Below, piece after piece: positions 21,977 through 22,702 of a stretch of 64,000 bases of DNA (position 1 is its first letter; each line of letters starts with the position of its first letter). The translations under genes were made by a program, and so were the position numbers. Under the pieces are notes generated by a model, which made no database searches, was not told where the DNA came from, and worked only from the letters and a program-made list of their open reading frames with translations. Source of the stretch: Fimbriimonadaceae bacterium (GTDB taxonomy: Bacteria; Armatimonadota; UBA10988); contig JADZEX010000014.1 in NCBI GenBank assembly GCA_020850355.1, forward strand, positions 124,001 through 188,000, written 5' to 3'.

Positions 21977-22702
21977 ATGAACCGGTTGACGGGCGAGCGG
22001 GCCGCCCACCTGGTGGAGCGGCAGATGGCCATGTTTCACGTGAAACAGCGCGCCGCCGCGGCGCAGCCGGAGGCCACCGCGCCACCCCCGGCAGCGGCCG
22101 GGCCGTATGTGGCGATTTCGCGGCAGTATGGCGCGCAGGGCTCGGCGGTCGCCGCTGCGGTGGCCGAACGGCTCGGCTACGCGCTCTACGACCGCGAGTT
22201 GGTGGAGGCCGTGGCGAAGGACGCGCACCTGCAGCAGCGGCTGATCGAGCCGCTCGACGAGACGGCGCGAAGTGACCTCAACCACTGGATCCACGCGCTG
22301 CTGACCGAGAACGACCTCTCGGGCGGGCAGTACAACGCGGCGTTGTTCCATGTCCTGGCGAGCCTCGCTGCGGTTGGCCGGGCGGTGATCGTCGGCCGCG
22401 GCGCGCACCTCGCGCTGCCGGCTGATCGCGGGCTGCGGGTGCGGCTCTACGCGCCTCCCGAGGACCGGCTGCGCAACGTGATTGCCGAGGAAGGGCTGCC
22501 GGAGAAGGCGGCCCAGCGCAAGCTGCGCGAGGTTGAAGAGAGCCGCCAGCGGTGGCTGCGCGAAGCCTTCGGGGAACGGGCCAAAGAGCCCTTCGCCTTC
22601 GATCTGGCGCTGAACACCGCGACGTTGCCGCGGGCCACCTGCGTCGACCTGATCTTGGCCGCGCTGCGGGCGCGTTGTCCGGGGTCATTCCAGACCGGGT
22701 AA
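21977..22702 (+). CDS. Cytidylate-kinase-like family protein with embedded parS
   Basis: A 241-residue P-loop kinase relative (cytidylate kinase-like family). The core starts at PYVAISRQYGAQGSAVAAAVAERLG (about 43-67); the usual GxxGxGK[ST] loop appears as QYGAQGSA. It continues with LYDRELVEAVA and VGRGAHLAL. The substrate is not established for this family. The first 42 residues are a variable tail, and codons 19-24 (MFHVKQ) are encoded by a perfect ParB-binding parS site, an arrangement seen where parS lies inside genes. The ATG has GGGAGAG upstream. The 3' end overlaps the convergent gene by 18 bases. Confidence 0.8.
   Translation: MNRLTGERAAHLVERQMAMFHVKQRAAAAQPEATAPPPAAAGPYVAISRQYGAQGSAVAAAVAERLGYALYDRELVEAVAKDAHLQQRLIEPLDETARSDLNHWIHALLTENDLSGGQYNAALFHVLASLAAVGRAVIVGRGAHLALPADRGLRVRLYAPPEDRLRNVIAEEGLPEKAAQRKLREVEESRQRWLREAFGERAKEPFAFDLALNTATLPRATCVDLILAALRARCPGSFQTG
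22032..22047. promoter_or_regulatory. parS centromere site (perfect 16-bp palindrome)
   Basis: TGTTTCACGTGAAACA is an exact match to the chromosomal parS consensus bound by ParB. It lies inside the cytidylate-kinase-like gene and encodes MFHVKQ together with flanking bases. ParB loads here and spreads, and the ParABS/SMC system uses such sites to move and fold the origin region. No parA or parB gene is next to it. I saw no second copy in the window. Confidence 0.93.

Follow-up and report, generated by a model that had tools for sequence, protein, structure and literature searches.

A parS site inside a cytidylate-kinase-like gene is a probable satellite of an expanded ParABS centromere in a Fimbriimonadaceae bacterium

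The single parS palindrome found in a 64-kb stretch of the genome of a Fimbriimonadaceae bacterium, hereafter the window, is one of approximately 156 such sites in that genome. Judged from its sequence and context, it is very probably a genuine ParB-binding sequence and a satellite of a chromosomal ParABS centromere that has undergone huge expansion. This centromere appears to be exceptionally large and to be built around the replication origin, with stray copies elsewhere.

The palindrome, TGTTTCACGTGAAACA, occupies positions 22032-22047 of the window (C15:146032-146047 in the genome, G000) and is the only exact 16-mer parS in it, with no further match at up to three mismatches. It lies within an ORF on the forward strand (21977-22702) that matches PF13189 (Cytidylate_kin2, E value 2.5e-37) over residues 45-215, and is read in frame as ATG TTT CAC GTG AAA CAG, encoding MFHVKQ, N-terminal to this domain. 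Sequence, frame and PF13189 match thus confirmed the initial annotation of an exact parS coding for MFHVKQ in the N-terminal tail of a cytidylate-kinase-like protein. A search of 80 further genomes of the phylum detected orthologues of the kinase in 44 (E value ≤ 1e-8), and those of the family align with the window protein through the tail (LVERQMAMFHVKQRAA in the window, LIERQMAMFHAQERAA in G002 and LVDRHMRMYNALQAAA in G001), which supports the upstream start of the ORF. The conserved tail segment QMAMFHVKQRAAAA (22022-22063, forward strand) corresponds to QMAMFHAQERAARE in G002, where no parS is present; at the place of the site this best orthologue, with 58% identity, has ATG TTC CAT GCG CAG GAG. 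The prediction that orthologues would retain MFHVKQ while the flanking residues vary was therefore contradicted, as the tail is kept and parS is not. Since the orthologues share the tail but lack the site, point substitutions within the coding sequence of this lineage most likely gave rise to the kinase parS. Two of its codons are rare in this genome, TTT (9.5% of Phe codons) and AAA (9.6% of Lys codons).

Silencing of the kinase gene by ParB is doubtful by analogy with Pseudomonas aeruginosa, where at native ParB levels genes beside the intergenic parS3 and parS4 were repressed and genes beside the intragenic parS1 and parS2 were not (PMC5521831), the latter being unaffected by loss of ParB binding.

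The genome is a 117-contig draft of 6.67 Mb with 95% completeness and 71% GC. Scanning of all contigs identified 112 exact 16-mer parS sites and 156 exact 14-mer cores; 168 sites were found when up to two mismatches were allowed and 161 cores with the degenerate core GTTNCACGTGNAAC, and reversed-pattern controls gave none. From a genome of this size and composition, about 5e-5 exact 16-mers would be expected. No other 14-bp palindrome came close to the parS 14-mer in the 1.4 Mb that was read (148 copies as compared with 10 for the runner-up).

Profile searches revealed a single ParB_N protein in the genome. It contains the ParB_N, HTH_ParB and ParB_C domains (PF02195, PF17762 and PF23552, all above the cut-off), the CTP motif GERRWRA together with ENLQRE, and its best PDB match is Spo0J (1vz0). 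Its gene directly follows parA (C96:4022-4828, PF13614), the pair spanning C96:4022-5727, and two perfect parS sites are located directly upstream of parA. The canonical sites therefore occur in a genome encoding one full ParB next to a ParA, and the earlier remark that no parAB is adjacent to the kinase site holds for the window, as parAB is on a different contig. C96 opens with rpmH, yidC, jag, AIM24, parA and parB, and C46 opens with dnaA, dnaN and recF. These are the classical flanks of oriC, so from gene order we place oriC between the starts of the two contigs. A sequence of about 127 bp upstream of dnaA (C46:1-127) is shared with the 3′ end of C52; this repeat had no match in Rfam.

The parS set is concentrated near oriC, being densest on the contigs that open with dnaA and with rpmH-parAB (0.3-0.4 sites per kb; 40 cores in 92 kb on C46 and 55 cores in 178 kb on C96). 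Sites number 8-13 per 20 kb close to oriC and drop to a few further away, and C46, C96, C22 and C59 together carry at least 124 cores. The layout was analysed for the 148 of 156 cores that could be located, which form 73 clusters, 44 of them with 2-6 sites; spacing inside clusters is mostly 42-68 bp, and usually 2-4 sites lie about 55 bp apart. Although approximately 93% of the DNA is coding, 137 of the 148 cores are intergenic. Genes were called with a home-made caller, according to which parS is present in 74% of convergent, 20% of tandem and 16% of divergent gaps (Fisher's exact test, P = 3e-7); a second training of the caller gave 16 of 25, 22 of 106 and 9 of 55, respectively. Of the convergent gaps that measure 100 bp or more, 16 of 17 in the origin zone are filled, as compared with 0 of 22 on the satellite contigs C15, C19, C41 and C104.

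Intragenic sites are more frequent among satellites (6 of 24) than in the zone (3 of 124; Fisher's exact test, P = 6e-4). They are translated solely as [L/M/V]FHVK (7 of 9) or VSRET (2 of 9). The remaining frame includes a TGA and is used in two cases, in which it supplies the stop codon of its own gene: the predicted genes at C39:27850 and C96:22593 end inside parS at this TGA (TGTTTCACGTGA). A nucleotide-metabolism theme linking the CTPase ParB to a cytidylate-kinase-like host was considered and dropped, since the other hosts are too varied (a glycosyltransferase, an Rce1-like protease, an O-antigen ligase, CobS, a rhamnosidase-like protein and unknowns).

The window contig C15 follows the satellite pattern. 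It carries one parS in 210 kb, which equals the genome-wide satellite density, none of its four convergent gaps is filled, and no features of the zone were seen on it. The proposal that the window is origin-proximal is thus unsupported, C15 being unordered in the draft. The GC-skew analysis suggested for placing the origin was carried out, but on none of the nine contigs measured did the skew depart much from zero, and hence it cannot place the origin in this genome. Contaminating contigs were rejected as an explanation, as tetranucleotide use is well correlated among the zone contigs and C15, C19 and C52, and less so for the small contigs C5 and C41.

Conservation of the sites ends at 18 bp, with none beyond CTGTTTCACGTGAAACAG, and pairwise similarity of the flanks is about random. 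The exceptions are local tandem duplication in some clusters, such as C46:8849-9146 with a period of 59-60 bp, and one 127-bp end, where the 3′ ends of C46 and C59 share the same sequence, which contains a parS array that includes one degenerate site (TGTTGCCCGTGAAACA); this duplicated array is probably where the assembly broke. Tandem duplication, together with 26 flank matches of at least 15/20 within clusters, is what would be expected if a mobile or amplified repeat of the REP, MITE or uptake-sequence type had been copied to these places, and the sites were not ParB sites maintained one by one. We regard this as very improbable, since the flanks are mostly unrelated, with few matches between clusters and conservation confined to the 18 bp, parS density is tied to oriC, and the kinase copy most likely came about through substitutions in a coding tail shared with the orthologues. 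A similarly poor prospect is that the palindromes (CTGTTTC-ACGT-GAAACAG) are transcription terminators or 3′-end hairpins that match parS by coincidence. The strong preference for convergent gaps fits such a role, as does the mean relative position of 0.39 in tandem gaps, which is nearer to the stop codon of the upstream gene. However, a T-rich tail (at least five T in the next 12 nt) follows only 1 of 113 sites, one stem sequence accounts for all copies while the next 14-bp palindrome has 10, variants lack compensatory pairs, the convergent gaps of satellite contigs are empty, and termination does not need several copies per gap.

It is a serious possibility, if a less than even one, that the origin zone alone is functional and that the kinase site and the remaining satellites are either near-neutral remnants or chance occurrences. 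The low density of satellites and their more frequent intragenic position agree with this reading, as does the lack of parS in the kinase orthologues. Chance, however, would give merely the 5e-5 exact 16-mers per genome noted above, and the kinase copy is perfect despite its rare codons TTT and AAA. The preferred reading is a ParB-binding satellite of an expanded centromere.

The expansion appears to have taken place on the branch of this species alone, starting from the family mates' state of one or two sites near parAB. In 290 other genomes of the phylum, 14-mer core counts were 0-13 with the exception of G098, which has 89, and counts of the degenerate core were 0-14 in 100 other Armatimonadota, with 2, 1 and 2 in the family mates and 2 in an order mate. 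In the family mates G001 (L282) and G003 (L284), which represent sister genera, a variant, TGTTGCACGTGCAACA or TGTTGCACGTGAAACA, is located by parB; these variants differ by a shift at consensus position 5. A hidden expansion of a variant consensus in the sisters was rejected, as merely 1-2 sites with GTTNCACGTGNAAC were found.

G098 is a Chthonomonadaceae genome of 3.7 Mb (L155) in the same phylum and another family, and it likewise shows a large expansion with spacing of about 58 bp. Its dense arrays, present on two of the three contigs read (C17 and C113; L274, L275), one contig of 5.8 kb and one of 66.7 kb, have partly similar spacers, unlike the mostly unrelated flanks of the present genome. 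The partial similarity of the spacers suggests that arrays were duplicated rather than sites gained gap by gap, and thus that G098 may have expanded by array copying; the expansion is an independent one of another style. When 50 genomes picked across bacteria for having parS triplets were compared, the highest core counts were 89, 50, 49 and 40, with at most 16 in the rest. The 50 cores belong to Streptomyces albospinus JCM 3399 (L127), the 49 exact cores, 12 of them within about 5.2 kb, to Enteroscipio rubneri ResAG-96 (L202) and the 40 to a Selenomonadaceae MAG (L186).

Canonical few-site systems, such as those of Caulobacter (7 sites), P. aeruginosa (10) and Bacillus subtilis, share ParA, ParB, the 16-bp parS and linkage to oriC with this genome. 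The usual number of sites is given as 1-20 (PMC10197239, citing Livny 2007), as opposed to approximately 156 over several hundred kb here, and in most bacteria parS sites lie within 5-40 kb (PMC8357415). The Streptomyces system is more similar, with the same consensus, many sites around oriC and one chromosomal parAB. The highest published count found was 65 sites predicted by a matrix scan in S. albidoflavus J1074, the family mean being 22.8 (PMC8743542); the present genome exceeds this count at least 2.4-fold even though its sites were counted more strictly, as exact matches. It also differs from Streptomyces in being much denser, with clusters of sites about 55 bp apart and convergent gaps near saturation. 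In S. albospinus, 8 of 39 examined cores are intragenic and the preference for convergent gaps is weak (2.2 versus 0.9-1.1 per kb). The literature searched contained nothing relevant on more than 100 parS sites in one genome or on ParABS of Armatimonadota.

The parS sites saturate intergenic gaps, foremost convergent ones, across a region around oriC of roughly 250 kb or more. In the mechanism that we propose, the single ParB would load at many of these sites and form one long partition region or several, and ParA would move this region, which may load SMC at many points. New sites may arise mainly by point mutation and local tandem duplication, and would be tolerated where ParB spares promoters and reading frames; tolerance of this kind would explain why convergent gaps are the ones filled. 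In Caulobacter, the zone permissive for new parS tracks the existing parS cluster and not ori (PMC5815017), so that each gain can widen the zone. One speculative and rather unlikely extension is a runaway 'regional centromere', in which every new parS widens the zone that tolerates or favours more until all promoter-free gaps near oriC are full and further copies turn up as satellites in genes and on remote DNA. Such a process might be driven by the permissive zone following parS, or by sister or polyploid chromosomes competing for ParA in a manner similar to centromere drive; the alternative to a runaway is that selection favoured robust segregation, the chromosome being large and perhaps polyploid. 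The kinase parS would be an outlying product of the expansion process, probably with little effect on the kinase.

What causes bacteria to differ in the number and clustering of parS sites has been posed as an open question (PMC7333895). Scattered sites have been called counterproductive for the avoidance of SMC collisions (PMC8357415), and the present genome is informative because this cost would be expected in it. The placement rule observed here, in which convergent gaps are filled and promoters and reading frames are avoided, informs how ParB coexists with transcription, and E. rubneri ResAG-96 and S. albospinus JCM 3399, with 49-50 sites, offer tractable isolate parallels. With approximately 156 sites as compared with 1-2 in its sisters, this genome represents a natural experiment on the growth of a bacterial centromere.
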